Source: Alopecurus myosuroides (Eukaryota > Streptophyta > Magnoliopsida > Poales > Poaceae). Taken from it: DNA of 64,000 nucleotides. This document shows, piece by piece, positions 1,645-64,000 of the stretch. The stretch lies in the NCBI GenBank assembly GCA_028641055.1, contig CM054062.1, forward strand, positions 172,222,347 through 172,286,346, written 5' to 3'. The notes beneath the pieces are model-generated. The model did not search any database and had not been told where the DNA came from. It saw only the letters and a list, made by a program, of their open reading frames with translations. The translations under genes and the position numbers were made by a program. Each line of letters opens with the position of its first letter. Position 1 is the first letter of the stretch.

Positions 1645-4600
1645 CTATTTCTCCGCCAACCCGGAGCCAATAATGGCTACGCGGTCGGGGAACTCAGGGT
1701 CGACCTGAATCTTCTTCGTCTCCTTGGCAGCTTGGAAAGCAGTGCCCTGCTGGGTACTCGGCACGTCTTGCGCGCTAGCTTGCGCGGAATGAGCCATGGC
1801 CACCACCTCGTACATCTTCTTCTTCTCGGCAGCAATCACCATTGACTCTGCCAACTGGGAACCAGCAGAGGCACACTCAATGGATTTCTTGTAATCTCCC
1901 GAGATGGTAATGATGCCATTGGGACCGGGGATCTTCATCTTCAGATACGCAACATGGGTGGAGGCCATGAACTTGCTCAGTGCAGGCCTGCCGAGTAGAG
2001 CGTGATATGGGCTCTGATGGTCCACCACCTCGAACTGCAGGCGCTCTGTGCGACAATTCTCCCGAGTACCGAATAGCACATCAATCCATACTCGGCCAAT
2101 CGGGTTGCACGAGATCCCGGGCACAATGCCATGGAAGGTGGTCTTGCTAGGCAGCATCATGTTCTCGGCCAGGCCAAGCTTCTCGAGTGTGTCCTTGTAC
2201 ACAATGTTGATGCTGCTGCCGTTGTCGATCAGCACCTTGCTGAACCTCACATTCTTCACGGGACCCAGGAAGGTAGGATCCAGCACCAAGGCATAGCTAC
2301 CCGGATTGGGCATCACCTTGGGATGATCTACTCGGGACCACCTGATCTCCTTGTCGCACCAGTACATGTAGTGAGGAACAGCAGGAATCACTGCATTGAC
2401 CTCCATGGCCCGCCTGTGCTGCGACTGCTTGTCGTCAGGCTCAGAAGTGAAGATCATGTAGCTCTCGTGGTGCTCTTGGTACTGATTGGAGCCATTGCCC
2501 CCATTGCTGCCATTGTTGTTGTTGCCCTGGTAGTTGTTGTTGTTGCCTCTGTTGTTGTTGTTGTTGCGGTTGTAGTTGTTGTTGTTGTTGTTGCGGTATC
2601 TCTCATTGTTGAAGTACTGGTTGGCTCCTAAAGCCACCTGGTTCACGTTTTCTTTTCTCGGGTACACTGGCGGCCGAGCTGCGGGTGCGCGAGCAGGCTG
2701 CACATTGTCATTGGCATTGACGGCTGGCAGGGGAGGAGGAGGAGGCAAGCCATCACTCTTGATTGCCTCCCACCACTCGCACTGCCGAGTAGTGTGGTTA
2801 GCAGGCCTCGACGGATGGTGGGTGTGAAAGCTGCATGGGCCATCCTTCATGTCATCGAAGACAAACTTCTTCGGCTGCTCGGAGTTCCCGCTACCCGACT
2901 GAGAGGCGCGAAATGGCTTCTTGTTGCCTTGGCCCTGGTTCTGGTTCTGCCCGTAGGCTCCAGCAGGTTTCTGCCTTTGGCCACCACCGCCTCCAACATT
3001 CACTGCATTCACCTCTTCAGGATCATACCGAGTATCTACTCGGCGTTTGTTGCGGAACTCGTTGCGCTTGCTGCTGTTGAAGTTTCTTCTCGGCTCAGAG
3101 GAGTCCATCAGTGGCTGAGTGGGATCTCCGAGTGCGTACTGATCCGCAATCTTGATGGTCTCGGCCAGGGTGTTCGGCATCTCTCTCTGCAATCTCTGCC
3201 AAAGCATGCTGCCATGTCGGCAACCCTGCGCAAACCAAGTGATGGCTTGTGCTTCATTCACGCCCTCACAAGTGTTCCTCAAGGTGCTCCACCGAGTAAG
3301 ATACTCGCGGTCCGTCTCGTCTTCTCGCTGCCTGCAGGCTGACAGCTGCTGGGGCCTATTCGGCCTCTTGTATGTGCTTGTGAAGTTGCTGATGAATGCG
3401 TCCGAGAAGTCCAGCCAGCAGTTAATGCTGTTCTTGGGCAGGTTGTTGAGCCATGTACGGGCTGGACCCTCTAGCATCTGTGGAACATAGCGCACAGCCC
3501 ATCTTCTGTTACCATTCGCGATGTGGACCGCGGTAACATAATCATTGAGCCAATCTTCAGGCTTGGTGCTGCCATTGTAACTCTTGGTGCCCCTTGCAAG
3601 CTGGAAGCCCTTCACGGAAGGCTCGTTCATGATGCGCGGGCCAAAGCACTCGGGGCCAGGAGGACCCGTGCTCTCAAGCCGCGCCGACAAGCTGATACGG
3701 TCCAGCTGGTGCCTTGCATCTCCAGGCGCCAACACGCGCTCCCCAACACGGTCATGAACATCATAACCAGCCATCTCCATGGCCGAGTAGCCATCATCAT
3801 ACCTATCCACCTGCATAGCTGCGGGCTGCTCCGCCGGGTTGGCGACTGGTGCCACTGGGCGCGGCTGCTGCCTTTGCCGAGTAGGCTGAGCTGCGGGTTG
3901 CCGAGAAGTACCCGGACGCGCGGCTTCTCGGACACGGCTTTGAGCTTGATGGGCTTGAGAGCCCGCTCTTGCAGCATTGTGTTCCTGCCCGGGCTGCTGC
4001 GGCACAGCAACCTGTTTCGCGGCAGCAGCCGGGTCATACACCTGCATCTGCCTGTCTCTGCCCGAGCGGCCGCTGCGGCTCTTCTCGCGGCTAGGATGCG
4101 GAGATGAGGCCTGATCGTTAGATCTAGCCGCGTGCGAATGCACCATCTGCGAAGCCCCAGCCCCCGGATTGGCCTTCCGGAACTCCTCGTTCTGCCTAGC
4201 AGCCTCCAACACGAACTCATTGAGCCTCTCTTGCTGCCTGACACGCGCATCACCGTCTAGGCGAGGCAACTCGGCAGCTACAGCCTCTGCAGCTCTAAGG
4301 GTTTTGGCGGGTGTGCTGTATCTGGGCCTGGTGGAAGTGTTTGCGGTGGCGGACTGAGCAGGAGCCTCTACAACTATTGCCATCTCGGCACCAAGGTTAC
4401 GCCGAGTAGCACCTACTCTGCTAGGCCTCCTAACAACCGGCGTGAAGCCGTGAGCCTTGTTGTACTCGAGCTGATCTAGACTCAGCTCTAACCTCACCTT
4501 GTCCAACTCCGCCTGCTCGGCAAGCAGCTCCAAGCGTTGCCGCTCGAGCTGCTCCCTCATGGCCAGGAGCTCGATGTCGGTGGGGGTTGGCATGCCAGGC

Positions 4601-4929
4601 CGCGTAGCCGACGCGGGAATGGCCGCAGATGTGGAAGGCGGCATGTTGCTCTCCTTCTCGTAGGGCCGGTGTACCCTGCCACCAGCCGGTACGTCCACCT
4701 CCTCGACGACGGCCGCAGCGCCAGTAGCGGCTGCGACAGCGTTTGCCGCCAAGCCCGTCACCAGCACCTCAGCGCAGTTCGCAGAGCGAGACGCGGGCCT
4801 TCCGCGAGCAGCGATCACCGCGGGAGGATCCTCCGCGTCATGCACCAGCTCGGGGTAGGCGCTGTTGGCGACGGTGGCGACGTAGACGAGGTGAGAGCCG
4901 AAGGAGATCACCGAGCCGCCCTCCGGCAT
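1645..4929 (-). CDS. Tat-lineage Gypsy gag-protease polyprotein
   Basis: Structural and protease part of the Gypsy element. The open frame runs back to 5217, but that lies inside the LTR and reads through the primer site, so I place the start at the first Met after the PBS (4929); the Met at 4644 is an alternative. Visible parts in order: an Ala/Gln/Arg-rich N-terminal region with an EQLERQRLELLAEQAELD coiled-coil-like stretch (about 4500-4560); a retrotransposon gag domain (about 3100-3640, with WLNDYV, MLEGPARTWLNNL, FTSTYKRP, CRQREDETDREYLTRW); a Cys/His segment CSFHTHHPSRPANHTTRQC (about 2780-2845); an Asn-rich linker (about 2510-2600); and an aspartic protease with IDNGSSINIVY (2194-2229; active-site Asp at 2224-2226). 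It ends in TAG at 1645-1647, after which pol continues in the same frame. A second copy is truncated inside the protease at 48057. Confidence 0.88.
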   Translation of the reverse strand: MPEGGSVISFGSHLVYVATVANSAYPELVHDAEDPPAVIAARGRPASRSANCAEVLVTGLAANAVAAATGAAAVVEEVDVPAGGRVHRPYEKESNMPPSTSAAIPASATRPGMPTPTDIELLAMREQLERQRLELLAEQAELDKVRLELSLDQLEYNKAHGFTPVVRRPSRVGATRRNLGAEMAIVVEAPAQSATANTSTRPRYSTPAKTLRAAEAVAAELPRLDGDARVRQQERLNEFVLEAARQNEEFRKANPGAGASQMVHSHAARSNDQASSPHPSREKSRSGRSGRDRQMQVYDPAAAAKQVAVPQQPGQEHNAARAGSQAHQAQSRVREAARPGTSRQPAAQPTRQRQQPRPVAPVANPAEQPAAMQVDRYDDGYSAMEMAGYDVHDRVGERVLAPGDARHQLDRISLSARLESTGPPGPECFGPRIMNEPSVKGFQLARGTKSYNGSTKPEDWLNDYVTAVHIANGNRRWAVRYVPQMLEGPARTWLNNLPKNSINCWLDFSDAFISNFTSTYKRPNRPQQLSACRQREDETDREYLTRWSTLRNTCEGVNEAQAITWFAQGCRHGSMLWQRLQREMPNTLAETIKIADQYALGDPTQPLMDSSEPRRNFNSSKRNEFRNKRRVDTRYDPEEVNAVNVGGGGGQRQKPAGAYGQNQNQGQGNKKPFRASQSGSGNSEQPKKFVFDDMKDGPCSFHTHHPSRPANHTTRQCEWWEAIKSDGLPPPPPLPAVNANDNVQPARAPAARPPVYPRKENVNQVALGANQYFNNERYRNNNNNNYNRNNNNNRGNNNNYQGNNNNGSNGGNGSNQYQEHHESYMIFTSEPDDKQSQHRRAMEVNAVIPAVPHYMYWCDKEIRWSRVDHPKVMPNPGSYALVLDPTFLGPVKNVRFSKVLIDNGSSINIVYKDTLEKLGLAENMMLPSKTTFHGIVPGISCNPIGRVWIDVLFGTRENCRTERLQFEVVDHQSPYHALLGRPALSKFMASTHVAYLKMKIPGPNGIITISGDYKKSIECASAGSQLAESMVIAAEKKKMYEVVAMAHSAQASAQDVPSTQQGTAFQAAKETKKIQVDPEFPDRVAIIGSGLAEK
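2513..2595 (+). repeat. GTT/AAC microsatellite encoding poly-Asn
   Basis: Interrupted GTT trinucleotide tracts on the plus strand. Read on the minus strand they encode runs of Asn broken by Tyr, Arg, Gly and Gln in the linker between gag and protease. Plus-strand readings of the same tract give artificial poly-Val peptides. Confidence 0.85.
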
Positions 4930-5063
4930 GGCCTTGCCGCCGAAGTCGCCGGCGTTGTCGGTGACGAAGTCGAAGGAGCCGAATCTGTGGACAAGGCCAC
5001 AAACCACGCGCTCCGCTGATGAAGATCCCGTCCGAACAGAGACTCCAACCAGCGCCACTGCTT

Positions 5064-5081
5064 GCCCCACGGTGGGCGCCA
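5064..5081 (-). other. Primer binding site of the Tat-lineage Gypsy
   Basis: Minus-strand TGGCGCCCACCGTGGGGC lies 2 bases downstream of the LTR end. It starts with the TGGCGCC of tRNA-Asp-type primer sites used by Gypsy elements, but the rest differs from the Athila-type site at 6102-6119. The position next to a TGTCG...CGACA LTR supports the call. Confidence 0.7.
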
Positions 5082-5083
5082 AC

Positions 5084-6011
5084 TGTCGTGGTGGTGTCAC
5101 GGCAGATGCCATAGGATGGCTAAAGATGTGGGAACGATGGACGCTGGAGGTATTCGGGGAGGGATCACGCGACGAGTAGCCGCGTGAGGTAAGAACAACA
5201 CACTGCAAACAACACAATCTACCCAGGTTCAGGGCCCTCGTGAGGAGGTAAAACCCCTACTCCTGCCTCTCTATATGTATTATGATGTTTCTCCGAGTAG
5301 CCACAGTACAAATGGTATCTCTACCGGGTAGCCTCTCACTCCTCTCCGAGTAGAGCTAGGTCAAGAACTTAGGGTTTCTAAGGTTCCCAAATGGGCGGGG
5401 AGCAAGATCTGAGAGCGTGTAGAGCGTCTATCGAATGCCTCACGCAGGAGGCGGCGGGGCACCTTATATACCTGGTGCCCAGCCGGATACGTCCAAACAT
5501 GGACAAATGTCGACATAGTGTGCACACCGTCCTTCTTCCGGGTTCCCGCTGACAGCTTTGGTTCCTAACCTTGGCTTCATCCGGAAAGTCGTTGGGCAAA
5601 ACTAGGGGACAGACTGGTATCACTGTACCTAGGCACAGAGTAGGCCCCCCTTATCCTGCCACAGCCTGCTTCCATGCTGTCACTGTCAGGCAGGCCGGCC
5701 CCAGATGAACAGTAGTTCGAATGCTGCCAAGTACGGACCCAGGATACGCGGGATCCTGTGTCAGAACGGCTCCTTTGACTTTCTGACCCGAGTAGGTTCC
5801 CGCCAATTGTTCCCGCCAATTGTACTCGGGTCAACCTTCTACTCGAAAGGATAGAACTTGCTTGATTTCTCCTTCTGGTCATCTTGAGGTGAGACCGAGT
5901 AGCAGTCGACCGGGTAGCGAGTACCAGGTAGTCGGCTACTCGACCAAACCTCTCTTCTGTAAGCTGCCTTTACCACTTGTCTTTACCCTACTCGGGGGTA
6001 ACCCCCCGACA
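5084..6011 (-). mobile_element. 5' LTR of the Tat-lineage Gypsy
   Basis: 928-bp LTR with perfect terminal inverted pentamers (TGTCG at 5084 and CGACA ending at 6011, plus-strand view). The PBS lies directly inside and interrupted host LTR sequence directly outside. The partner LTR lies outside the window, so the boundaries rest on the termini, the PBS and the point where homology to the host LTR resumes (6013 onward). The 5 bases after the LTR (AGTTC) would be the target duplication; the undisrupted host LTR near 12829 has TGTTC. Confidence 0.75.
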
Positions 6012-6091
6012 AGTTCTGAGGGAAACTTGCTACTGTGCTCTTCATGCCTTCCTCTTGGGGTCTCCCAACGAACATGTGTCCACACGCATCA
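6012..6091 (+). mobile_element. Remnant of the 5' LTR of the Athila-type element
   Basis: The last ~79 bp of the 5' LTR, nearly identical to 12829-12906 (one G/A difference at the CTTCATG/ACCTTCC site beyond the first base). The remainder of this LTR is displaced to the left by the Gypsy insertion. It ends in GCATCA just before the primer site. Confidence 0.85.
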
Positions 6092-6101
6092 AGCATTTTT
6101 C

Positions 6102-6119
6102 TGGCGCCGTTGCCGGGGA
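6102..6119 (+). other. Primer binding site (tRNA-Asp type) of the Athila-type element
   Basis: TGGCGCCGTTGCCGGGGA on the plus strand, 10 bases after the LTR end at 6091. This is the tRNA-Asp-complementary site typical of plant Athila-lineage elements. Confidence 0.85.
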
Positions 6120-9100
6120 GAAAGATAATATCTGCAAGGGGAGTATCTCACTTCCAATCTCTTTACTTTGTTTTAGTTTTGCTTAGTTTATTTTATTTTA
6201 TCTTGTTTGCTTCTCTATATCGAAAACACAAAAAATTAGTTCTCATTACAATAGTTTTTTTACTTTGCTTTTTCTTGTCCATCATGTTGCTCCCTAAGTT
6301 CACCCTGAAAGATCTACCAGTAGGTAGTGGTTCTATACTTGGGAAGGATACCATTAAATAATTCTTTAATCATATTAGTAAGCATGAAAATTTTGAGGAA
6401 AAATCCATAGTAGAGCTTTCTCCGAATTATGAAACTGTTGCAACTTCTTTGATTCACATGTTATAAGCTAGGTTTGTTAACCTTCACCCCATACTGCAGA
6501 AAATGTTCCTTAACTTGAATAACATTGAAGATATTGAAAAAAGAATTTTTATCTTGGAAACCATGCTTAAAGAATTTGGAGATGTTGCTATAGAAGCTAG
6601 AAAAGTTTTTGATCGCTTTAATATGCTAGGATCATGTGTAGATGTTGTTGGAGATCTTGAAAAAGCCGAACCTAAAAATTAAAAGGAGAATAAAATACCA
6701 ATTCCCTTAAAGTTATTAGCACCTCATGAAGCCCAAGAGAAGAATTTTGACTGGATTGTTCCTGAAAATTTATTTGATGAGAGCAGTAAACCTAAAAGTT
6801 CTAAGAGAGGAACATCTGAAACTCATTTAGACAAAATAAAATGCGTTATTGAGGAGTTTCCTTGTCTCAATTTGGATGCTTCCTCACTTGAAAACACTTG
6901 ATTTTCTCTTCCTATGCCTAGCTGAAAGACGTTAAAGAAAAGCACTTCTTGGGAGATAACCCATGTTTTTATTTTTTTGCTTTGTTTTCTCTGTTTTCTT
7001 TGATTCGATGTGTTGTATACTTATATAGAAACTAATTTTTATATTTATGTTCATGTATTTTTTGTGCCAAGTAAAGTTTCTAGCGAAAAGTGGTGTTAGT
7101 TTTGGATTTCTGCGCAGAAAACAGATTTCTTCTGTCCACCGTAAAAAATCGTATAATTCACAGAAATTCAAAATGACATGAAACTTTTTGTGCTTATTTC
7201 TCAGATAATTATGAAACTTTTTCGTTCTTTATGTTTTTCGATTTGAGAAACTTAAGTTCCCCAAATTTTTTTGTCATTACAGATTGTTCTGGTTTTGGCA
7301 GATTCTGCCATTTTTCCTGCATTCGCTCTTTTACTATGTCGAGTGGATTTGTTTGCTTCACGAAATATCAGTGGATGTAATTAATGTTTAAAAGTATTAA
7401 TAGCACTTATTCCCATGCAGAACACGTGAATTTTTGATTGTTCACTAACCCTCAAATGCGAATTACTTTGAGTGTGGTGTGAAGGAAGTTTTGAAGGGTC
7501 AAGAGAAGAGGGTGATATAATGAGATCAAGAAGAGTGTAAATACAAAGATTGGGGATGACCCTGTGGTTCATCCCAGAAAATTCTAAGAAGACTCAACCG
7601 TCTAAGCTTGGGGATGCCCAAGGCATCCCCTTCTTCATCAATAAATTATTATATCACTTCTAGTGAAACTATATTTTTATTCGCTCACATCATATGAATT
7701 TTACTTGGAGCGTCTTTTTTTTTGTTTTTTTTTACTTGCTTCAATAAATATAATTGGAACCTAGCATTCTTGTTTGGGAGAGATACATGCTCCAATTTTT
7801 CATTTGAATACTCGTTATGCTCGTATTCTTAGTTTTCTTCTAGCTGCTGCAATCATTTTAGCTCCTGTTTTTCATGCATCTCTTATTCAGATATGTTAAT
7901 TTTAGTAAAGTTATTATAGTACTCTCTTGCTTAATTTTTGTATCATTTGGATAGTTTGTGTTAACAAATATTTTGATTTATGCTTCATGGAAAAATAAAA
8001 TGTTGCATGTGGTAGAATTTATAACGGTGCAAAAAGAAGCTTGTATAGATTGTGGCTAGACTTATTCATGTCATGTTAGATGTTATTTTAATTCTAAGCT
8101 TAGTGGTTATTTTTGTAGCATGATTTTTTTCAAATAGCTGAGAGTGTTTAATGTGCCATTGAAAGAATCATGAGTTGTTTTTAACACATTGAAGCATAAA
8201 TTTATGGTGTTCTCCTTTGAATGTTTTATTTGGTCAACTTGGCGCATTCTTACACCATGTTTATGACTAAAAACTAGTCACTTATAGCCTCTATGATCAT
8301 TTAGTTTTTGACTTTTAATACCACTTATGCTTGGATTAATAATGTTTTTGTCTCTATGCATGATTATGACCATTATGCTCTGTTGATTTGTCGTTCCCAG
8401 TCTTTGCTAGCCTCCACCTGTACTGAGTATGATCTCTACTCGTGCATCCAACTCCCAAAAACCAAAGTATGCCAAATGTGTCCACCATACATACCTACAT
8501 GTGGTATTTAACCGCCACTCCAAAGTAAATTTCTCATGTGTTACCTTTAAAACCTTCAAAATTACTCCTATTTTGTGCTCCTGTTTTAGCTCATGAGGAC
8601 GTGAATGGAGAATCTTTATCTCACTTTTTGATTGGACTTCACACCCTCGACTAGTGGCTTCATCCGCTTATCCAATTACTAGAAGAGTTGGCAGCAGGTT
8701 GCCCAGCCCCAAACTTAGTACAACAAATTATCTTCACTATTTTTGCCCCTGATTTGTCAGTCAAAGCATAATTGTGTAAACAAAAGAGAAAGAGGAATGA
8801 ACTTCTACCCAGTTGCGCCCTTCTATGGGAGCCGCTCTTGTGAAGTCTAGTTGGCTTGTGACGTACTGTATTTTCTGTTCACCATTCCTTGACATAAGCA
8901 TACACACCTCTCTAAAAAAATGTTTTCAAGACTTCTGTTTAACAAAATAAAAGCTCTAGCAGATGAGTGATCCCTGCTTCCCTATGCGAAGGGCCTTTAT
9001 TTTACTTTTATGTTGAATCTCCATCTTCTAACTTTATGCACAGTTGAGAGATTATAGTTTTCATTCTGAGTTTAATGTGCATTTTTCCCAAAAATATTAT

Positions 9101-9485
9101 TGATTGATTCATACCTTGTTATTACTTTCTCTCAAATTATTTGTTCTAGTCATCCTCTTAAACTTTGAAGGTGTCCTGGCATTTTTGTTTTGCCCCAATC
9201 TTAAGGACAAGCGAAATATCACTTTGCTATGTTTTCTTGATGCTAGAAACAAACTTATAACTTTCAGATGCATTATTATTCATGATCTTCTATTTGTGTT
9301 ACTTTCCATGATGCAAAGTGATTGCTATGTTTCATTTCTAAAATTGTATCTACCGTGCTTGTGTTTAAAGTAGATCTCAGCTTACATATGCTTTTACAAT
9401 TTTGATGATCAAGCTTATGTTGGTAGCATGTCACCTCAGAAATTATTTGTTTTGTCGTTTACCTACTCAAGGACGAATAGGAACT

Positions 9486-9499
9486 AAGCTTGGGGATGT
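9486..9499 (+). other. Polypurine tract of the Athila-type element
   Basis: AAGCTTGGGGATGT immediately before the TGATACGTC start of the 3' LTR. A purine-rich stretch in this position primes plus-strand DNA synthesis. Confidence 0.75.
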
Positions 9500-12400
9500 T
9501 GATACGTCATAAATGTATCCATAATTTCTGATGTTCCATGTTGTTTTCATGTTATTTGCTACATGTTTGCTATACACTTTATTCCATTTTTATCGATTTT
9601 CTGGGACTAACCTATTGACAAGGTGCCACAGAGTCAGTTCCTGTTTTTTGCTGTTTTTGGTTTCAGAAAAGTTGTTCTGGAAATATTCTCGGAATTGGAC
9701 GATTCAAAAACCGGGGGTCTTAGAGATCTGTCGCGCATACGGAGTCCGGAAAAGACCCGGAGGGGGGCCACATGAGCCCCACACCATAGGGCGGCGCGCC
9801 CCCTGGCCACGCCATGGGGTGGTGTGGCCCCTCTGGCCTCCCACCAACGTTACCCTTTAGCCTATTTATACCCCTCAGGAGGTTAACCCTAAAAAAATAA
9901 GCCTTTTCCATGAAAAACACCCAAGGCCGCCGCCATCGTCAACCCTTGTTTGGGAGGGTTCTAGAGCTCTCCCCGGCACCCTGCTAGGAGGGGAAATCAT
10001 CACATGAGGGCTCTACACTACCATGTCTGCCTCCGGAATGATGCATGAGTAGTTCATCCTTGGACTACGGTTCCATAGCAGTAGCTAGATGATTGTTCTC
10101 ACCTCTTTATGCCTCATGTTTAGATCTTGTGAGCTTCCCTAGATGTTCAAGATCATCTTATTGTAATGCTACATGTTGTGTTTGCTGGGATCCGATGAAT
10201 ATTGAATGCTATGTCTATTTATTATCAATCTATCATGTTCTTTTCATGTGTATGTTATTTATGATCTTGCATGCTCTCCGTTGTTAGTAGATGCTAGTGA
10301 CTCCAAGAGGGAGTATTTATACTCGATAGTGGGTTCATGCATCCCTTGCATTTGTGCTCGAGTGACAGAAACGTGACAAACGGGGGATGTGTTGTTACCA
10401 TTAGAGAGAAAACAACGATGTTTACATTGTTTACATTACACACTTTGATCAATGCGATTATCTGTTGCTTGCAACTTAATACCCAAGGATTTCTCAGATG
10501 ACATTCTGAGGGTGGATTATTAGTCATAGATGAAGTTGGATAACGGTCTATGAGTCTTGTTGTAATGCCCACATGAATCACATAGTAATAACCATGTCAT
10601 GCATGTTTCAATATCTATCAATTGCCCAACTGTAATTTCTTCACCACACATGTTATTTATCTTCTATGGAGAGACACCACTAGTGAACTTAGGACCCCGG
10701 TCCATTTTCCTCATATTTATAATATAACAAATGCAATCACTGTTTTCACACGCTACTACTGTTTTGTCACACCCCAGATTTGGGACACTTGTAACACATG
10801 AGGGAGACCATTTTTGTGAGCCAACAAAAACTTTTTAATGCCCTTGTGTAATCCAACATTATGTATTGAACCATGGTTATCTATGCAATGCAAGCAAATT
10901 TGATTCAAAAATCATTCACTTTGTTTTCTAATGTTTTCTTAATATTTCTGGATTGTTTTCCACCTGATGCTTGCTTAGTATGGTTCTCATTGAGTGTCCT
11001 TATTTTTATTTTACGACGATAGAAACTGAAGAAGAGGTAGTTGGAGCAGGAGGTTACTACTACCACTCCTGCTGTGATCACGAACAAGACCCTCGTTTCC
11101 TCCAAGGCAAGCCATCCTTAAAGCTTGTTGTTATTCCTACTTATCATTCTCTATCATGCATGCCCTACTTCCGAAGTTTTCAAAAACTTGATTACCAAAA
11201 ACTATTTCATTGAGTGAATATTACTATTAATATTATATAGTTATATTATCACCTTGCCATTAGTCAACTTGGTGTTACCAAGCCCTTAGCCACCATAAGG
11301 TATATAAATACCGCTTAAGATAATAATCTTGAGTCCCTAAGTGGACACTTTTAAAATGTTCTTTTGCAAACAAAAGGAGTTATGAAAATTCCACGGTGAA
11401 AAGGCGGGACCTTGTTCACTGGGGGAGCTAAGGAGTGTTTTCAAAATGTTTACAAAAGGCACATAACCTATTCTTCGCTGGACAACCAAGAAGTACTGTC
11501 GCTCTACCCCAACATGGGTACGGGGCCTATCTAGATACTTGAACTTGTTAGTGTGTGTTCTATCCAAAAAAGCTATAGAGAGGATGATACTCTGAACCGA
11601 AGTGTCGCCAGGAGGGAGAAACGGGACATACACAGTGTGAGATTAATTGGGTCCCCTGTTCGGCGATGTGCGACATGGTGCCAGGGGGAATAAACCTAAT
11701 TGAAGGGATAGCCATATACTAGCTTGTGTCAGAGTGGACAGTTAGGATCATTCTTCTGATACTTGCATATCGCTGTGTCGATCCATGGGTGGTTCATGGC
11801 AGACATTTGGATCTAGTGGAATGTGTACACCTCTGCAGAGTAAAACTATTCAGAATAGCCGAGCCCTCGGATATGGGAAGTTGAAAGGCCATGTAGCTAG
11901 TATTGTGTCAAGTTTTCAAAAATGTGTTTTTGAACCAAGACTTGTACCCGAAAGGTACCGATGAAGGATCTGGACATGTTGTTCCAAGAAGTTTCGCAAA
12001 GAAAATTTTCTTTTATAAAACAAGTTTATAAAACCTCTTGTACATGCGATATCTACAAGAGAAAGAAAACTTATATTATTTTCTTCTGAAGTATCTTCTT
12101 CAACAAAGATACAGATAAAATGAATGCAATTATGATGTCATCTTAGATGTACACCATATGTAGTGAGCCCTATTTATAGCCTACCAATCCACCATATAAG
12201 CATGATGCATTTTGTAAGTGTATGAAGGATGAATTGCTGAGTACATTCAAAAGTACTCATATTGGTTTTGACCCTGGCTATTTACTTGGCCAGACTTTGA
12301 GGAGACGCCTCTGGAGGAGGAATACGAGGAAGGGTACTACTCTGGCGATTATGCGAACTAGGCCCGGCTCCCGGTCAGCAGCGTGTCAGTGACGGCGTGA

Positions 12401-12906
12401 CATGGGCTACCTACGTGTGTTTCTTTCCGTTGTGTGTGTGAGATGTGAGACTTTGCTTGTCCTGCGTGGCAGCTAATAAAGACTTGGTCATGTGACCATT
12501 GGCTTGTAAGACTGTTGTTATTCGTGTAATGGATAATGTATCTATATACCACTTCGTATGTTGTTCACGACTGAATTTCTTGGGATCGTGAATGTATGCA
12601 TATGAGGGTTCTGGACCATCCCGTTTGGGGCCTCTACATGTTTTCACATTGTTTTCCACACCATACGTTTAACCTCTTTGTTTTCAGCAAAAACAGTGAG
12701 ATTGACAACCTCACTGCTTGTGTAGGTTCCACGTTGCTGCTGAACCGGTGGTGTGCCCTGCCACCTCAGCTGCATCAACCTTCAGAAGTTACTTCTTTCT
12801 CCTACTGGTCGATTCAACCTTGGTTTTGTTCTGAGGGAAACTTGCTACTGTGCTCTTCATACCTTCCTCTTGGGGTCTCCCAACGAACATGTGTCCACAC
12901 GCATCA
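9500..12906 (+). mobile_element. 3' LTR of the Athila-type element, interrupted by a solo LTR
   Basis: Starts TGATACGTC after the polypurine tract and ends ...CACGCATCA, matching the 5' LTR remnant. Two pieces (9500-10764 and 12644-12906, about 1.53 kb together) are split by a 1.87-kb insertion with a duplicated TGTTT target. The left piece carries GC-rich sequence around 9720-9860 and a TATTTATA box near 9861-9872, consistent with an LTR promoter. The element ends inside an older Copia, whose reading resumes at 12907. Confidence 0.82.
10765..12638. mobile_element. Solo LTR nested in the Athila-type 3' LTR
   Basis: A 1,874-bp block beginning TGTCACACCCC and ending GGGCCTCTACA, flanked on both sides by TGTTT (10760-10764 and 12639-12643). 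The TG...CA ends, 5-bp target duplication and absence of any internal coding region show a solo LTR left by recombination between the LTRs of one element. An AATAAA lies near 12474. Orientation and family cannot be decided here; it does not match the other LTRs in the window. Confidence 0.8.
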
Positions 12907-15098: not shown

Positions 15099-15102
15099 CT
15101 CA

Positions 15103-19156: not shown

Positions 19157-19158
19157 TA

Positions 19159-20277: not shown

Positions 20278-20279
20278 TA

Positions 20280-21995: not shown

Positions 21996-21997
21996 TA

Positions 21998-50796: not shown

Positions 50797-50930
50797 GGCC
50801 TTGCCGCCGAAGTCGCCGGCGTTGTCGGTGACGAAGTCGAAGGAGCCGAATCTGTGGACAAGGCCACAAACCACGCGCTCCGCTGATGAAGATCCCGTCC
50901 GAACAGAGACTCCAACCAGCGCCACTGCTT

Positions 50931-50948
50931 GCCCCACGGTGGGCGCCA
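50931..50948 (-). other. Primer binding site of the Tat-lineage Gypsy, second copy
   Basis: Counterpart of 5064-5081. Confidence 0.68.
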
Positions 50949-50950
50949 AC

Positions 50951-51878: not shown

Positions 51879-51958
51879 AGTTCTGAGGGAAACTTGCTAC
51901 TGTGCTCTTCATGCCTTCCTCTTGGGGTCTCCCAACGAACATGTGTCCACACGCATCA
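51879..51958 (+). mobile_element. Athila-type 5' LTR remnant, second copy
   Basis: Counterpart of 6012-6091. Confidence 0.82.
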
Positions 51959-54900
51959 AGCATTTTTCTGGCGCCGTTGCCGGGGAGAAAGATAATATCT
52001 GCAAGGGGAGTATCTCACTTCCAATCTCTTTACTTTGTTTTAGTTTTGCTTAGTTTATTTTATTTTATCTTGTTTGCTTCTCTATATCGAAAACACAAAA
52101 AATTAGTTCTCATTACAATAGTTTTTTTACTTTGCTTTTTCTTGTCCATCATGTTGCTCCCTAAGTTCACCCTGAAAGATCTACCAGTAGGTAGTGGTTC
52201 TATACTTGGGAAGGATACCATTAAATAATTCTTTAATCATATTAGTAAGCATGAAAATTTTGAGGAAAAATCCATAGTAGAGCTTTCTCCGAATTATGAA
52301 ACTGTTGCAACTTCTTTGATTCACATGTTATAAGCTAGGTTTGTTAACCTTCACCCCATACTGCAGAAAATGTTCCTTAACTTGAATAACATTGAAGATA
52401 TTGAAAAAAGAATTTTTATCTTGGAAACCATGCTTAAAGAATTTGGAGATGTTGCTATAGAAGCTAGAAAAGTTTTTGATCGCTTTAATATGCTAGGATC
52501 ATGTGTAGATGTTGTTGGAGATCTTGAAAAAGCCGAACCTAAAAATTAAAAGGAGAATAAAATACCAATTCCCTTAAAGTTATTAGCACCTCATGAAGCC
52601 CAAGAGAAGAATTTTGACTGGATTGTTCCTGAAAATTTATTTGATGAGAGCAGTAAACCTAAAAGTTCTAAGAGAGGAACATCTGAAACTCATTTAGACA
52701 AAATAAAATGCGTTATTGAGGAGTTTCCTTGTCTCAATTTGGATGCTTCCTCACTTGAAAACACTTGATTTTCTCTTCCTATGCCTAGCTGAAAGACGTT
52801 AAAGAAAAGCACTTCTTGGGAGATAACCCATGTTTTTATTTTTTTGCTTTGTTTTCTCTGTTTTCTTTGATTCGATGTGTTGTATACTTATATAGAAACT
52901 AATTTTTATATTTATGTTCATGTATTTTTTGTGCCAAGTAAAGTTTCTAGCGAAAAGTGGTGTTAGTTTTGGATTTCTGCGCAGAAAACAGATTTCTTCT
53001 GTCCACCGTAAAAAATCGTATAATTCACAGAAATTCAAAATGACATGAAACTTTTTGTGCTTATTTCTCAGATAATTATGAAACTTTTTCGTTCTTTATG
53101 TTTTTCGATTTGAGAAACTTAAGTTCCCCAAATTTTTTTGTCATTACAGATTGTTCTGGTTTTGGCAGATTCTGCCATTTTTCCTGCATTCGCTCTTTTA
53201 CTATGTCGAGTGGATTTGTTTGCTTCACGAAATATCAGTGGATGTAATTAATGTTTAAAAGTATTAATAGCACTTATTCCCATGCAGAACACGTGAATTT
53301 TTGATTGTTCACTAACCCTCAAATGCGAATTACTTTGAGTGTGGTGTGAAGGAAGTTTTGAAGGGTCAAGAGAAGAGGGTGATATAATGAGATCAAGAAG
53401 AGTGTAAATACAAAGATTGGGGATGACCCTGTGGTTCATCCCAGAAAATTCTAAGAAGACTCAACCGTCTAAGCTTGGGGATGCCCAAGGCATCCCCTTC
53501 TTCATCAATAAATTATTATATCACTTCTAGTGAAACTATATTTTTATTCGCTCACATCATATGAATTTTACTTGGAGCGTCTTTTTTTTTGTTTTTTTTT
53601 ACTTGCTTCAATAAATATAATTGGAACCTAGCATTCTTGTTTGGGAGAGATACATGCTCCAATTTTTCATTTGAATACTCGTTATGCTCGTATTCTTAGT
53701 TTTCTTCTAGCTGCTGCAATCATTTTAGCTCCTGTTTTTCATGCATCTCTTATTCAGATCTGTTAATTTTAGTAAAGTTATTATAGTACTCTCTTGCTTA
53801 ATTTTTGTATCATTTGGATAGTTTGTGTTAACAAATATTTTGATTTATGCTTCATGGAAAAATAAAATGTTGCATGTGGTAGAATTTATAACGGTGCAAA
53901 AAGAAGCTTGTATAGATTGTGGCTAGACTTATTCATGTCATGTTAGATGTTATTTTAATTCTAAGCTTAGTGGTTATTTTTGTAGCATGATTTTTTTCAA
54001 ATAGCTGAGAGTGTTTAATGTGCCATTGAAAGAATCATGAGTTGTTTTTAACACATTGAAGCATAAATTTATGGTGTTCTCCTTTGAATGTTTTATTTGG
54101 TCAACTTGGCGCATTCTTACACCATGTTTATGACTAAAAACTAGTCACTTATAGCCTCTATGATCATTTAGTTTTTGACTTTTAATACCACTTATGCTTG
54201 GATTAATAATGTTTTTGTCTCTATGCATGATTATGACCATTATGCTCTGTTGATTTGTCGTTCCCAGTCTTTGCTAGCCTCCACCTGTACTGAGTATGAT
54301 CTCTACTCGTGCATCCAACTCCCAAAAACCAAAGTATGCCAAATGTGTCCACCATACATACCTACATGTGGTATTTAACCGCCACTCCAAAGTAAATTTC
54401 TCATGTGTTACCTTTAAAACCTTCAAAATTACTCCTATTTTGTGCTCCTGTTTTAGCTCATGAGGACGTGAATGGAGAATCTTTATCTCACTTTTTGATT
54501 GGACTTCACACCCTCGACTAGTGGCTTCATCCGCTTATCCAATTACTAGAAGAGTTGGCAGCAGGTTGCCCAGCCCCAAACTTAGTACAACAAATTATCT
54601 TCACTATTTTTGCCCCTGATTTGTCAGTCAAAGCATAATTGTGTAAACAAAAGAGAAAGAGGAATGAACTTCTACCCAGTTGCGCCCTTCTATGGGAGCC
54701 GCTCTTGTGAAGTCTAGTTGGCTTGTGACGTACTGTATTTTCTGTTCACCATTCCTTGACATAAGCATACACACCTCTCTAAAAAAATGTTTTCAAGACT
54801 TCTGTTTAACAAAATAAAAGCTCTAGCAGATGAGTGATCCCTGCTTCCCTATGCGAAGGGCCTTTATTTTACTTTTATGTTGAATCTCCATCTTCTAACT

Positions 54901-55366
54901 TTATGCACAGTTGAGAGATTATAGTTTTCATTCTGAGTTTAATGTGCATTTTTCCCAAAAATATTATTGATTGATTCATACCTTGTTATTACTTTCTCTC
55001 AAATTATTTGTTCTAGTCATCCTCTTAAACTTTGAAGGTGTCCTGGCATTTTTGTTTTGCCCCAATCTTAAGGACAAGCGAAATATCACTTTGCTATGTT
55101 TTCTTGATGCTAGAAACAAACTTATAACTTTCAGATGCATTATTATTCATGATCTTCTATTTGTGTTACTTTCCATGATGCAAAGTGATTGCTATGTTTC
55201 ATTTCTAAAATTGTATCTACCGTGCTTGTGTTTAAAGTAGATCTCAGCTTACATATGCTTTTACAATTTTGATGATCAAGCTTATGTTGGTAGCATGTCA
55301 CCTCAGAAATTATTTGTTTTTTCGTTTACCTACTCAAGGACGAATAGGAACTAAGCTTGGGGATGT
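51959..55366 (+). mobile_element. Athila-type internal region, second copy
   Basis: Counterpart of 6092-9499 with the same stops in the gag remnant. Primer site at 51969-51986 and polypurine tract at 55353-55366. Substitutions at 53760 and 55321. Confidence 0.7.
51969..51986 (+). other. Athila-type primer binding site, second copy
   Basis: Counterpart of 6102-6119. Confidence 0.83.
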
Positions 55367-58300
55367 TGATACGTCATAAATGTATCCATAATTTCTGATG
55401 TTCCATGTTGTTTTCATGTTATTTGCTACATGTTTGCTATACACTTTATTCCATTTTTATCGATTTTCTGGGACTAACCTATTGACAAGGTGCCACAGAG
55501 TCAGTTCCTGTTTTTTGCTGTTTTTGGTTTCAGAAAAGTTGTTCTGGAAATATTCTCGGAATTGGACGATTCAAAAACCGGGGGTCTTAGAGATCTGTCG
55601 CGCATACGGAGTCCGGAAAAGACCCGGAGGGGGGCCACATGAGCCCCACACCATAGGGCGGCGCGCCCCCTGGCCACGCCATGGGGTGGTGTGGCCCCTC
55701 TGGCCTCCCACCAACGTTACCCTTTAGCCTATTTATACCCCTCAGGAGGTTAACCCTAAAAAAATAAGCCTTTTCCATGAAAAACACCCAAGGCCGCCGC
55801 CATCGTCAACCCTTGTTTGGGAGGGTTCTAGAGCTCTCCCCGGCACCCTGCTAGGAGGGGAAATCATCACATGAGGGCTCTACACTACCATGTCTGCCTC
55901 CGGAATGATGCATGAGTAGTTCATCCTTGGACTACGGTTCCATAGCAGTAGCTAGATGATTGTTCTCACCTCTTTATGCCTCATGTTTAGATCTTGTGAG
56001 CTTCCCTAGATGTTCAAGATCATCTTATTGTAATGCTACATGTTGTGTTTGCTGGGATCCGATGAATATTGAATGCTATGTCTATTTATTATCAATCTAT
56101 CATGTTCTTTTCATGTGTATGTTATTTATGATCTTGCATGCTCTCCATTGTTAGTAGATGCTAGTGACTCCAAGAGGGAGTATTTATACTCGATAGTGGG
56201 TTCATGCATCCCTTGCATTTGTGCTCGAGTGACAGAAACGTGACAAACGGGGGATGTGTTGTTACCATTAGAGAGAAAACAACGATGTTTACATTGTTTA
56301 CATTACACACTTTGATCAATGCGATTATCTGTTGCTTGCAACTTAATACCCAAGGATTTCTCAGATGACATTCTGAGGGTGGATTATTAGTCATAGATGA
56401 AGTTGGATAACGGTCTATGAGTCTTGTTGTAATGCCCACATGAATCACATAGTAATAACCATGTCATGCATGTTTCAATATCTATCAATTGCCCAACTGT
56501 AATTTCTTCACCACACATGTTATTTATCTTCTATGGAGAGACACCACTAGTGAACTTAGGACCCCGGTCCATTTTCCTCATATTTATAATATAACAAATG
56601 CAATCACTGTTTTCACACGCTACTACTGTTTTGTCACACCCCAGATTTGGGACACTTGTAACACATGAGGGAGACCATTTTTGTGAGCCAACAAAAACTT
56701 TTTAATGCCCTTGTGTAATCCAACATTATTTATTGAACCATGGTTATCTATGCAATGCAAGCAAATTTGATTCAAAAATCATTCACTTTGTTTTCTAATG
56801 TTTTCTTAATATTTCTGGATTGTTTTCCACCTGATGCTTGCTTAGTATGGTTCTCATTGAGTGTCCTTATTTTTATTTTACGACGATAGAAACTGAAGAA
56901 GAGGTAGTTGGAGCAGGAGGTTACTACTACCACTCCTGCTGTGATCACGAACAAGACCCTCGTTTCCTCCAAGGCAAGCCATCCTTAAAGCTTGTTGTTA
57001 TTCCTACTTATCATTCTCTATCATGCATGCCCTACTTCCGAAGTTTTCAAAAACTTGATTACCAAAAACTATTTCATTGAGTGAATATTACTATTAATAT
57101 TATATAGTTATATTATCACCTTGCCATTAGTCAACTTGGTGTTACCAAGCCCTTAGCCACCATAAGGTATATAAATACCGCTTAAGATAATAATCTTGAG
57201 TCCCTAAGTGGACACTTTTAAAATGTTCTTTTGCAAACAAAAGGAGTTATGAAAATTCCACGGTGAAAAGGCGGGACCTTGTTCACTGGGGGAGCTAAGG
57301 AGTGTTTTCAAAATGTTTACAAAAGGCACATAACCTATTCTTCGCTGGACAACCAAGAAGTACTGTCGCTCTACCCCAACATGGGTACGGGGCCTATCTA
57401 GATACTTGAACTTGTTAGTGTGTGTTCTATCCAAAAAAGCTATAGAGAGGATGATACTCTGAACCGAAGTGTCGCCAGGAGGGAGAAACGGGACATACAC
57501 AGTGTGAGATTAATTGGGTCCCCTGTTCGGCGATGTGCGACATGGTGCCAGGGGGAATAAACCTAATTGAAGGGATAGCCATATACTAGCTTGTGTCAGA
57601 GTGGACAGTTAGGATCATTCTTCTGATACTTGCATATCGCTGTGTCGATCCATGGGTGGTTCATGGCAGACATTTGGATCTAGTGGAATGTGTACACCTC
57701 TGCAGAGTAAAACTATTCAGAATAGCCGAGCCCTCGGATATGGGAAGTTGAAAGGCCATGTAGCTAGTATTGTGTCAAGTTTTCAAAAATGTGTTTTTGA
57801 ACCAAGACTTGTACCCGAAAGGTACCGATGAAGGATCTGGACATGTTGTTCCAAGAAGTTTCGCAAAGAAAATTTTCTTTTATAAAACAAGTTTATAAAA
57901 CCTCTTGTACATGCGATATCTACAAGAGAAAGAAAACTTATATTATTTTCTTCTGAAGTATCTTCTTCAACAAAGATACAGATAAAATGAATGCAATTAT
58001 GATGTCATCTTAGATGTACACCATATGTAGTGAGCCCTATTTATAGCCTACCTATCCACCATATAAGCATGATGCATTTTGTAAGTGTATGAAGGATGAA
58101 TTGCTGAGTACATTCAAAAGTACTCATATTGGTTTTGACCCTGGCTATTTACTTGGCCAGACTTTGAGGAGACGCCTCTGGAGGAGGAATACGAGGAAGG
58201 GTACTACTCTGGCGATTATGCGAACTAGGCCCGGCTCCCGGTCAGCAGCGTGTCAGTGACGGCGTGACATGGGCTACCTACGTGTGTTTCTTTCCGTTGT

Positions 58301-58773
58301 GTGTGTGAGATGTGAGACTTTGCTTGTCCTGCGTGGCAGCTAATAAAGACTTGGTCATGTGACCATTGGCTTGTAAGACTGTTGTTATTCGTGTAATGGA
58401 TAATGTATCTATATACCACTTCGTATGTTGTTCACGACTGAATTTCTTGGGATCGTGAATGTATGCATATGAGGGTTCTGGACCATCCCGTTTGGGGCCT
58501 CTACATGTTTTCACATTGTTTTCCACACCATACGTTTAACCTCTTTGTTTTCAGCAAAAACAGTGAGATTGACAACCTCACTGCTTGTGTAGGTTCCACG
58601 TTGCTGCTGAACCGGTGGTGTGCCCTGCCACCTCAGCTGCATCAACCTTCAGAAGTTACTTCTTTCTCCTACTGGTCGATTCAACCTTGGTTTTGTTCTG
58701 AGGGAAACTTGCTACTGTGCTCTTCATACCTTCCTCTTGGGGTCTCCCAACGAACATGTGTCCACACGCATCA
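55367..58773 (+). mobile_element. Athila-type 3' LTR with solo-LTR insertion, second copy
   Basis: Counterpart of 9500-12906. Confidence 0.8.
56632..58505. mobile_element. Nested solo LTR, second copy
   Basis: Counterpart of 10765-12638; TGTTT target duplication at 56627-56631 and 58506-58510. Substitutions at 56730 and 58053. Confidence 0.78.
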
Positions 58774-59820
58774 AGAATCATGACTAATCCTGATGGTAAA
58801 CGAAGATGTAGCGCCCCGATGGCGATCACATCAACCTTTGATCCATTTCCGACGTGCATCATCACCTCATCTCTTGCTAGTTCCTGTTTTGACTTACATA
58901 TGTTAGCAACCGAACCGGTATCAAATACCTATGCGCTACTGCGAGTACTAGTAAGGTACACATCAATAACTTTTATATCACATATACCTTTGTTCACTTT
59001 ACCGTCCTTCTTATCCGCGAGATATTTGGTGAAGTTTTGCTTCCAATGCCCAGTGCCCTTGCAGTAAAAGCACTCAGTATCAGTCTTAGGGCTAGTCCTG
59101 GTCTTCTTCTCAGGCACGACAATAGTCTTGCTGCCCTTCTTGAAATTACCCTCTGTTTTGCCTTTCTTGCCTTTCTTTACACTAGTGATTTTATTGATCA
59201 TCAACACTTGTGCTCTTTTCTTTCTCCACTTCAGCAGTTTTGAGCATTAACATAAGTTTGAGGAGCAACTTCTTCATGCTTTGCATATTGTAGTTCACTA
59301 TAAAGTTCTTGTAACTTTTTGGAAGTGATTGGAGAATAGGATAGATTCCTAACTTGTTGGGGATCGATATTCCCAGAGCTATGAGCTTATCAGCGTATCC
59401 AGTCATTTTGAGTGCATGCTCGCTAATGGAGTTGTCCTGTTCCATCATGCAGCTAAAGAACTTTTCTCAAGCATCATAGCTTTCTACGACAACATTGGTA
59501 TCAGAAATCAATTTCACTTCTCCCAATGTATCATAAGCGTTGTTGTTCTCGAAACGCTTTCGCAACTCCGACTCTAAACCATACAGAATGTCGTAGTGAA
59601 CTACACTTAGGTTCTCCTTTAGAGTTAAAAAAACATTTTTATCTTCCTCAGGAGCGGCATCAGCGGGAGGGGCACCTAGCGGTTCATCAATCACATAGAG
59701 CTTTTGACAAGGAGTGAGGAGAATTATCAGGTTAAGGGTCCAGTTGGTAAATTTGCTTCCATTGTTTGCTAGTTTCTCTTTCTCCATGAGCATATTGAAA
59801 TTAAAAGCAGGTGGTACCAT
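58774..59820 (-). pseudogene. Angela/BARE-type Copia gag and protease remnant, second copy
   Basis: Counterpart of 12907-13953 with the same stop, frameshift and degraded zinc knuckle. Confidence 0.78.
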
Positions 59821-60947
59821 GCTCTAGAACATATTTGCAAAGACTATTTAGATTATGTTTATGATAAATTAAGTTCAAGTTAATTCAAAAATTACTATGT
59901 GAACTCCCACTCAAAAACAACATCCCTCTAGTCGTTTAAGTGATTACGCAAACCAAATCCACTACACCAAAACCGATCATCACATGATATGGTGTAGCTG
60001 CAAAGGCAAACATCGAGATGTTCGTCATATCATCCATATGACTCATGTTTTATGTTTCGGTTACGTATTTCTAGGCCATGTCTGCAAATTTTAGACTTGC
60101 CAATTAGAACCGTAGTAATTGCGTGTATAAATATAGCTTACACACGTTGTATGCGAATGTTGAGTCTATCACACACCATCATCACATGGTGTTACAAAAC
60201 GAAAATTTTCATAATGGTGCATACTAAGAAAGAACACATTATTATCTTGATATTAATTGTGAGGGGTCATCTTATAATGCTACCATCACAATGTAAGCAG
60301 AATAAGATTCATAAAAAGGATTAACATCACATGCATCAATAATGTGATATGATATGGTCCTTTTTGCACTTGGTCTCCATCTTGTGCATTGGCATGATCT
60401 CCATTATTCCAGCGTGGCACCAAGGTCCGTGGCGCCTTCTTCTTGATTGTCCTCCAAAATTACAACATATCACATGAATATGAAATCTAGCACGCATGCT
60501 AAATAATAATAAGACAACCATTAGGCTCCTGCCGGTTTGTCATAATTTACAAAGAGGATCATCTCATACATCAAATTTGTAACACTAGCCATACCACATC
60601 ACATGCCCTGCAAAAAGAAGTTAGACGCCTCTAATTTATTTTTGCATGTTTTACGCGGTTTATTGCTAGCGAAGAAACCATAACAGTGATAAACAAATTA
60701 TTAAAAACGCATTGTAGATCAGATTTTAACTACAGTGAGAGAGTCGGACACTCTCCAGCCACTTATCCAAATAAGTTGCATATCAATCATGGAACAAGTC
60801 TCATGTATGCGGACATGTAAGGTTAGTCCGGGACGCTTTATCCCTCTATACCACTAAGATCCAAAATACACGAAGGAAGCAATAACATAATCATCAACGC
60901 CTACATACACATATATTTTCTACCCGTACAAAAACCATCTACGCATA
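59821..60947 (-). mobile_element. Angela/BARE-type leader, second copy
   Basis: Counterpart of 13954-15080; noncoding. Confidence 0.58.
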
Positions 60948-60965
60948 GATCAGACTCTGATACCA
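60948..60965 (-). other. Copia primer binding site (tRNA-iMet type), second copy
   Basis: Counterpart of 15081-15098. Confidence 0.78.
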
Positions 60966-60969
60966 CTCA

Positions 60970-62513
60970 TGGATTCGTAGCATAGAAAACAAAATTATTC
61001 CTATGGTAAGAACAACCAAGGGACCACGATCTAATCTACAGGATGCATGCAACAACTAGAATAAGTTCTAGAAGAACTAAACCTCAAAGACCAAAAGTGT
61101 TACGAGATTGAATCTCGTGGATGATGTAGACGAACACTTGCCGATCTCAAGATCGTGAAAATGAGCGCTGCAATCTGCCAACGCTTCTGCAATCGGTCAC
61201 ACGCACGGCTCAACGACGACCTCCGTTCCCTCGATCCAATGGGGCAGCGGGAGTAGTAAATCCACCGAAAACTCTAACAACACGACAGTGTGGTGTGGTG
61301 AAGAAGACTATTTGTCCATGGCTTCGCCAAGTGGATAACCAAGAGGTGGAACAACGGGAGGAGGGAGAGAGATATAGACACAAGTGCATGGGGTGAGGCA
61401 GCCCCTATGGGGTGTGGCGAGACCAAGGGTGCCCCAACCTCTTCCCTCTTCATGAGAGTGGAGCTCCCACTCATGCTCTTATTCAATGGGTGGACTCTCC
61501 CCTCAAAAAACTCAAAAGTCTCCTCATCGAATGAATGAAAACAATTTTTATTTTATATTTTAATATTTGTTAATTCTATTAATCAACAAATATTCTTACC
61601 CCCAACTATTTCAATATTCCCCAAAACAATTCTGGTGTTGTCGAAACTTTTTTCCGATATTTCGTATCTACTCAAAAGCGTCGACAAATCTTAATGGTGT
61701 CACTCTACGGTTTGCGAATAATGTAGACATGATCGAGACACCTCTCCGATCAATAGTAAAAAGGGGACCTGGAGATCCGTAATGGCTCCTACACATTCAA
61801 CGATGAATCTTGTGACCGCGTGAACCATAAAGGTAATAACCAATTTCTTTTGCGTCACGATACTTTAGTTGTCCGAGATCCGATCATTGGTATCAACTAT
61901 ACCTAGTTCGATCTCGTTACCGACAAGTAATTTTTTACTCATTCCCTGATATGACATACTTGTGACCTAGTCACGTGCTTGCAAGCGGTGTTGATTTGAT
62001 ATCACCAAGAGGGCCTAGATATCTCTTAGTCATTTGGATAGGCAAATCCCACTCGTGATCCATGAGTCTCAACAAATAACTTCAGAGTACCTAATTTCAC
62101 CTTTATATTCACCCTGTTACGATTTGACGTTTGATATTATCGAATCACCCTTCCGGTGTTAGTGATTGACATGATCTCATGGTCTAAAGATTAGAGTTAT
62201 TTGGTATGTGTTTGATATAACAGTGTAAACTTACTGACTTGATTGCATTGATATACTTACTTTGGGTGTGTGTGTTCACCATATCATTCTCCTAATGACG
62301 TGATCCCCTTATTAACAACATTCAATGTTCATAATCAGGAAACCTCAATCATTAGTTAATCAACAAGGTAGTTAAATGAGAGGCGTTACTAGAAACTCTT
62401 GCTTGTTTATTAGACACACATGTATTAACATTTTCGGTTAACACAATTATAACATGAGAAATAAACATTTATCATAAACATGGAATAAGATAATAACCAT
62501 TTTATTACTGACG
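60970..62513 (-). mobile_element. Angela/BARE-type Copia LTR, second copy
   Basis: Counterpart of 15103-16646, one substitution at 61175. Confidence 0.7.
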
Positions 62514-63042
62514 AACTCTTCCATGTCAGCTTTCCATGGCGATCCTTCAAGAACACGGTCAATGTCAGCTTTCCCGACGAACTCTTCCATGAAAAGGTTG
62601 GTACCTAGATTCCGGATCTCCAACCCCTTTGGATTACCGCACGCTAGACAGATCACATATTTGATCGTCGATATGTGCAACGGATTTTGGGGAAGAACCT
62701 TCCTCACAAGCGCCCCCTCCGGCAGTCACGGTGATCGTCGTCCTCATCCTGCAATACAAAGGCAATGGATTCCTGGGAGGTGAGATTGAGCCAGCCTAGC
62801 ATCTCAGCCACTTCGTCACCCGTCGTGGCCGCGGAAGACCTAGGTGTCTCCGTCGATTCCCCCTTCGAGGTCTGGTCCAGGAGATGGACCGACAGTACCT
62901 TGCTGGCGGTCCCATGGTCACCAGCAGCTCGATCCTTCCCAGCAATGGCGCCCGAATCGCATAACCTGACGGGCAAAACCGCCCGCCACCGAACAGAAAC
63001 CAGGGATGGAATTGCAGGCACGGATGGTCCTCCCAGGGCCAC
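62514..63042 (-). pseudogene. LINE ORF1-like fragment, second copy
   Basis: Counterpart of 16647-17175 with the identical frameshift. Confidence 0.58.
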
Positions 63043-64000
63043 GGGTGGAGAGGTGGATATGGTGGAAGACGGTGTCGAGGGTCACCGCCATCAAACGGAG
63101 TCGAGGAAGCCGGGAGATCGCCTCCGCAGTCGCGAGAAACCCTAGGCCAACCGACATATAAAAATAAATATTCTTGAGTAAGCCCATGCTCCCCCACAAA
63201 AAAAAAAGAGAGAAAAAACTAGTCGCTCACGCTATTGGCTCATGAGTGCATTATTTGTTCAGGAGTAGTGTGTGGGAGGCTGGGAGCATGATGCCTAGTT
63301 GGATCCACATAGAGTCACACTTTTAGTCCTTATCTGATTTGCCTAGTCATTAGTTACATCTCTTTGTTTAAGCTTTCGATTTGAGTTTACAACTTTAGAT
63401 GGGATCCCCAGGCCTGCTCAGACATCACTAAGTTTCAGTTCGTCAGTATGCATCATCGTATTGTATTTGTACGGTAGGTGGACCAACCCTGAGTGGCCAG
63501 CACTGAGAAAACGTTCTGAGAAAAATGTGACTTGAAAACTAGTGCCGTAAAACCAAGCCCGAAAGCATTTTTTAAAAGATAAAACGCACAACGAATTAGT
63601 GATAAGCTAAAGCTGTCAACTCACTGCCATAAAAAAAAAGCTATACTGTGCTCAATACTATGTTCGCCTTGAATTGGTTAAGCGGATGAAACGATGGTTC
63701 ATTCTAGGTTAACTGGTCGCCTGTGACAAATGCATCGTGCCATGTCACGCATCACAATCACCTATATTAATGATAACATCAATTTAAAGTGGGAACTGCT
63801 TCTCTGCCACGAGTCACTGTCAAAGTTCAAACCTGACGAAACTGCAACTTGGGAAAACTGATACGGTAGATATCTTAAGACACTCCCGCTTTAATATGGA
63901 TTAATGGACGATTGCTTGATTCTCGATGATCCAATTATTGGTTTTCAGTTGACAAACCAGATTTAGTTTACTCCACTAGACTAATCTTGGCTTGCTTAAA
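63043..64000. other. Unassigned intergenic stretch, second copy of 17176-18133
   Basis: Nothing supported beyond what is said for the first copy. Confidence 0.4.

Follow-up and report, generated by a model that had tools for sequence, protein, structure and literature searches.

Tandem segmental duplications of plant genomes with a non-homologous breakpoint consist of direct, near-identical copies whose edge falls sharply in unrelated sequence. In the available part of a maize F2 study of presence/absence breakpoints, which are not tandem duplications, exact microhomology is given for 414 of 1028 breakpoints (PMC5800051); more than half of these breakpoints thus lack it, so that, on this portion of the source, little or no homology at a breakpoint is ordinary. 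Homotype false duplications, as described in the available parts of two sources (PMC9516828, PMC7238635), are marked by a gap between the copies, by differences of the sequencing-error type near contig ends and by a read depth below the haploid level. Here, both systems are compared with a 64,000-nucleotide stretch of the black-grass Alopecurus myosuroides (assembly GCA_028641055.1, contig CM054062.1, positions 172,222,347 to 172,286,346 of the forward strand; "the window"), in which one segment of 15.9 kb occurs twice in near-identical form and another of 11.8 kb is repeated across a gap of 13 N.

The 15.9-kb pair is probably the visible part of a recent direct (head-to-tail) tandem duplication of ~34.0 kb with a non-homologous breakpoint, and the 11.8-kb repeat is read as a contig overlap; the weights attached to this and the other readings below are judgements and were not computed. 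One scaffold can therefore carry a false duplication right beside one that is probably true. The event would be of an ordinary kind, or possibly assembly noise; if real, it would offer a clean and young example, resolved to the base at its joint, of the growth of large plant genomes through non-homologous tandem duplication.

The near-identical pair and its joint

An ungapped comparison of positions 2190–18133 with 48057–64000 (offset 45,867) gave 9 substitutions and 0 indels over 15,944 positions, which reproduces exactly the count of the initial annotation of this DNA and excludes a chance or low-complexity match. The differences lie at 3832, 3834, 4213, 7893, 9454, 10280, 10863, 12186 and 15309 in the coordinates of copy 1. 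The same annotation had described the pair as free of indels even across AT runs and a GTT microsatellite, and this was borne out: the TTG arrays at 2513–2593 and 48380–48460 have equal coordinates once the offset is applied, and the 25 homopolymer runs of at least 6 nucleotides in the segment are equal in length between the copies, as no run can vary in a pair without indels. Zero indels alongside just nine substitutions is, in our judgement, not unusual in itself. The left edge of the pair is sharp at 2190/48057, with few bases agreeing upstream of the two positions, and BLAST pushes the pair to 2180 solely by means of added mismatches and one gap. The pair thus resembles the described plant tandem duplications in the direct orientation and near-identity of its copies and in an edge that falls abruptly in unrelated sequence; here, however, the similarity reaches base 64000, the last of the window, and the right end of copy 2 lies beyond it. 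The substitutions at 3832 and 3834 are both C/T changes and, lying two bases from each other, fall in the same codon of a Gypsy gag (Ala/Thr).

The two left edges differ in their context. In copy 1, the Gypsy frame that holds gag is open across 2190 and is followed by pol, and copy 1 therefore keeps the native context, whereas the frame is broken in copy 2. With the frame intact at the left edge of copy 1, the joint at 48056/48057 is taken to be the new one. A Copia gag, with a frame that stays open between 47315 and the joint, is cut there, which also marks the joint as derived: in the 40 listed Copia gag relatives, the next residues are K-C in 32 and different in 5, and 3 show a different site, while the window runs on past 48056 in Gypsy sequence without the K-C continuation. 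Rightward of the joint, copy 2 does not depart from copy 1 for 1,642 bases, until the difference at 3832.

The joint might alternatively be a mis-join, in which the end of an assembly path through the Copia gag was connected to the Gypsy gag locus rendered a second time; the 15.9-kb copy would then be false and its nine substitutions allelic or residual. This reading draws on the gap that separates the pair on one scaffold and on the overlapping contig ends nearby, which already carry errors. However, the joint lies ~17 kb into the contig to the right of the gap and shows no dip in quality, as compared with 114 indels between the overlapping contig ends. A joint based on one poor read would carry indel noise, so the clean sequence on both sides favours a joint supported by reads, although short-read polishing would clean a false joint as well. 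Moreover, the joint shows no shared sequence of a length that would deceive an overlap assembler, and an under-collapsed rendering of the same reads should show indel noise or zero differences rather than nine clean substitutions, which are more readily read as two distinguishable, well-polished templates. A mis-join is accordingly regarded as rather unlikely.

The 13-N gap and the contig overlap

The gap separates contig A, on its left, from contig B, on its right. Across it, 18912–30750 and 30764–42604 match over 11.8 kb but for 22 substitutions and 114 indels, of which 104 have a length of 1 bp. The substitutions comprise 16 A/T swaps and 2 transitions, as against 34 transitions among the 49 differences between the long terminal repeats (LTRs) of a Copia element lying within the overlap (p = 2e-6). 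The four renderings of these LTRs, two per contig, were aligned over 973 columns and used as witnesses of error. At the LTR at 34660–35515, 3.9–4.8 kb into contig B, contig B stood alone in 12 columns and contig A in none; contig A stood alone in 21 columns and contig B in 1 at the LTR at 28139–29093, 1.7–2.6 kb from the end of contig A. The remaining columns comprised 5 that were ambiguous, 1 in which both deviated, 153 with LTR differences common to both contigs and 780 that were alike. The Copia pol frames measure 276 and 250 aa in contig A and at most 172 and 99 aa in contig B. These results support the view that, at the two LTR sites and in the Copia frames, the faulty contig is whichever one is closer to its end, and indicate that the overlap is one DNA stretch rendered twice with long-read-type errors and left unmerged; the initial annotation had likewise taken it to be false. 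An LTR pair inside an overlap can thus reveal the error-bearing contig without reads.

The overlap fits a homotype false duplication in showing a gap between the copies and sequencing-error differences, which at the two LTR sites lie near each contig's own end, whereas the 15.9-kb pair differs in lacking such errors. Bionano hybrid scaffolding marks the contig overlaps that it finds with gaps of 13N, according to the available part of PMC7238635, and the length of the gap suggests that the scaffold was made by optical-map hybrid scaffolding. The indel rate of the overlap predicts ~154 indels in 15.9 kb, where 0 were seen, in agreement with the earlier proposal that the two repeats differ in origin; a single event behind both is ruled out by the 114 versus 0 indels. 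Transitions make up 4 of 9 substitutions in the pair versus 2 of 22 in the overlap (Fisher p = 0.04), and the pair shows no detectable difference in this respect from the Copia LTRs (p = 0.25).

The proposed 34-kb unit, competing readings and age

With the overlap removed, the order becomes left flank, 2190–30750, 42605–48056 and then the start of the unit again (48057–64000). The unit would accordingly consist of 2190–30750 plus 42605–48056, or 34,013 bp, which agrees with the ~34.0 kb estimated before; its extent depends on the removal of the overlap at the 13-N gap. The copies would be adjacent if the overlap is false, as the LTR witnesses support, and if copy 1 represents the full unit, as the coordinates suggest.

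In the proposed mechanism, this unit would have been copied head-to-tail beside itself, at a breakpoint between unrelated sequences. Unequal crossing-over between flanking repeats has no visible substrate, because no repeat of at least 40 bp pairs the two unit edges in a self-comparison (E <= 1e-4) on the side that is visible in the window. As the joint lacks long homology, end joining or replication template switching would be preferred to it as the mechanism. The second copy should continue through the whole unit, stop at the same Copia gag and pass into the remainder of that Copia. Near-identical copies longer than the reads would lead an assembler to break inside the unit and to leave the two ends unmerged; the contig break does sit within the repeated unit, as expected of a long near-identical repeat.

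Several observations weigh against a tandem duplication of this kind. The part of the unit present twice in the window amounts to 15,944 of 34,013 bp (46.9%). The copies are separated by an assembly gap, which, next to depth and linked reads, counts among the marks of false duplication listed in the available part of PMC9516828. Along the overlap, the indels per successive kilobase number 2, 3, 4, 10, 10, 13, 16, 7, 14, 11, 22 and 2; as the differences are not densest in the outermost kilobases of the contigs, the polarity of the errors is carried by the two LTR sites and the Copia frames. At the joint itself, strict microhomology is nil when the bases flanking 2190 and 48057 are compared. On the left side of the break, the best of three offsets brings 7 of 10 bases into agreement, a level reached by a fraction of 0.013 of 20,000 random pairs, at a comparison length chosen after the joint had been seen; the similarity is marginal, with fractions of 0.034–0.09 at other lengths (5,000 pairs each). 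A weak sign on the supporting side is that codons for Cys-Val-Leu can be fitted to the Gypsy strand at 2188; the pattern occurs 38 times on both strands of the window (128,000 positions); C-V comes next in the five best Copia gag relatives and Val in 9 of the 32 listed rows with K-C, and the fit is one base out of register. Both of these short similarities were noticed after the fact, and they may at most hint at a microhomology-driven joint.

A real second copy need not be a fixed tandem one. The duplication might be heterozygous, or a copy of 2190–18133 and beyond might have been moved or dispersed to a site next to the Copia gag; the scaffold would then combine both structures. Nine differences suit alleles as well as paralogues, and a heterotype (allelic) false duplication of the 15.9-kb pair would show a gap between the copies and allele-type differences at half depth, of which the gap is present and the substitutions may be allelic; in addition, the window stops 779 bp short of the counterpart of 18912, which would lie at 64779. 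Contig B, however, presents the 18912–30750 part, then 42605–48056 and then the start of the unit, in the order that a tandem repeat predicts, and an allelic or moved copy is judged improbable. The same junction of right end to left end would be produced if reads of a 34-kb extrachromosomal circle had entered the assembly. Such circles are rarely deep enough to shape a polished contig, the window holds no positive sign of one, and the nine substitutions point to copies that were inherited separately, which makes this origin extremely improbable.

For the favoured tandem duplication, the divergence of 9/15,944 (0.00056) corresponds to ~22,000 years (10,000–41,000) at a substitution rate of 1.3e-8 per site per year and to 43,000 years (20,000–82,000) at half that rate; these dates are lower bounds at best, because polishing with ambiguous reads can hide differences. 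The copying had been proposed to post-date all insertions in the unit. This stands for the Copia element at 22824–29093, whose LTRs have diverged by K = 0.060 in the cleaner renderings, ~100 times the value between the copies, and which therefore predates the copying. That the copied unit carries a tRNA gene and the whole nest of transposable elements, as was also proposed, has indirect support from the age of this Copia; the tRNA-Gly gene, the reverse transcriptase frame and the truncated Copia gag lie, together with that Copia element, outside the twice-seen part, and their presence in the second copy is an inference. It is very unlikely that the unit belongs to a longer young array or a re-inserted circle, carrying the tRNA-Gly gene and the transposons, which would have arisen no more than a few tens of thousands of years ago where the Gypsy gag and the Copia gag happen to share a short similar stretch.

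Features of the window and their relatives

The features are listed in Table 1. The RVT_1 match in the right part of the unit is presumed, from the label of the initial annotation, to belong to a long interspersed nuclear element (LINE).

Table 1. Coordinates of the features in the window (RT, reverse transcriptase)
Feature	Position	Strand	Remarks
Left flank, native context of the left edge of the unit	1–2189	-	Gypsy (Ty3) pol and C-terminal part of the gag-holding frame
Gypsy pol (RT, RNase H)	1–1644	-	Pfam RVT_1 (8.9e-31), RT_RNaseH_2, RT_RNaseH
Gypsy gag-holding frame, 1203 aa	1648–5256	-	Pfam Retrotrans_gag (1.1e-14); open across 2190
Copy 1 of the twice-seen part	2190–18133	+	9 substitutions, 0 indels versus 48057–64000
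Remainder of the unit, end of contig A	18134–30750	+	18912–30750 is the contig-A side of the overlap (self-comparison)
tRNA-Gly(CCC) gene	22434–22504	+	ARAGORN; Rfam RF00005, 61.8 bits
Copia element	22824–29093	-	LTRs 22824–23676 and 28139–29093; RVT_2, SH3 and Pol_BBD pieces inside (Pfam)
Gap, 13 N	30751–30763		Sole N run in the window; boundary of contigs A and B
Start of contig B	30764–42604	+	Error-bearing second rendering of 18912–30750; read as no biological copy
Right part of the unit	42605–48056	+	Holds the LINE-type RT and the cut Copia gag
LINE-type RT (presumed)	43139–44380	-	Pfam RVT_1 (3.9e-08)
Truncated Copia gag	47315–48056	+	Pfam Retrotran_gag_2 (7.4e-09); cut at 48056
Joint of Copia gag and Gypsy gag	48056–48057		Read as derived; identity lost sharply left of 2190/48057
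Copy 2 of the twice-seen part	48057–64000	+	Ends with the window; gag frame of 1036 aa, ending past the joint

Thirty open frames were scanned against Pfam, namely 28 of the 147 frames of at least 70 aa, one frame in the second rendering of the overlap and one in copy 2. Matches were obtained for 8 of the 30, and every matched family is that of a retroelement. For a 402-aa frame at 20714–21919 (+), neither a Pfam family nor any of 7,993 candidates scored as protein relatives reached E <= 0.001; the frame is overlapped by long minus-strand frames, and the longest plus-strand frame in its contig-B rendering is ~200 aa. A viral-contig search gave no relative of the Copia gag, and a plasmid search gave no match to 2190–10000.

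Among the 120 matches listed for each query, the best species-named relatives of both the Gypsy pol and the Copia gag come from pooid grasses, at no more than 82% identity, and point to a pooid grass as the likely host. For the Gypsy pol, the best five species-named rows are from Lolium, Festuca and Brachypodium (64–78% identity) and the other five from Oryza, Tasmannia and Camelina. For the Copia gag, 11 of the 12 species-named rows are pooid (Aegilops, Triticum, Hordeum, Lolium and Avena) and 1 is from Oryza; the Aegilops and Triticum rows show 64–82% identity.

The Copia element at 22824–29093 is bounded by ATATA at both outer sides, which is read as a target-site duplication in surroundings that are AT-rich. 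Its LTRs differ in length by ~100 bp owing to a block in the right LTR that is missing from the left one in both contigs. Positions 47219–47425, where the region of the truncated Copia gag begins, are 69–72% like part of these LTRs, and from sequence similarity the two Copia elements look like members of related families. Within the unit, an 84-bp direct repeat (6013–6096 and 12828–12911; 97.6% alike, 6.8 kb apart) might bound a further element. At 44791–44916, ~400 bp from the presumed LINE-type RT, a 61-bp unit occurs ~2 times with ~90% likeness.

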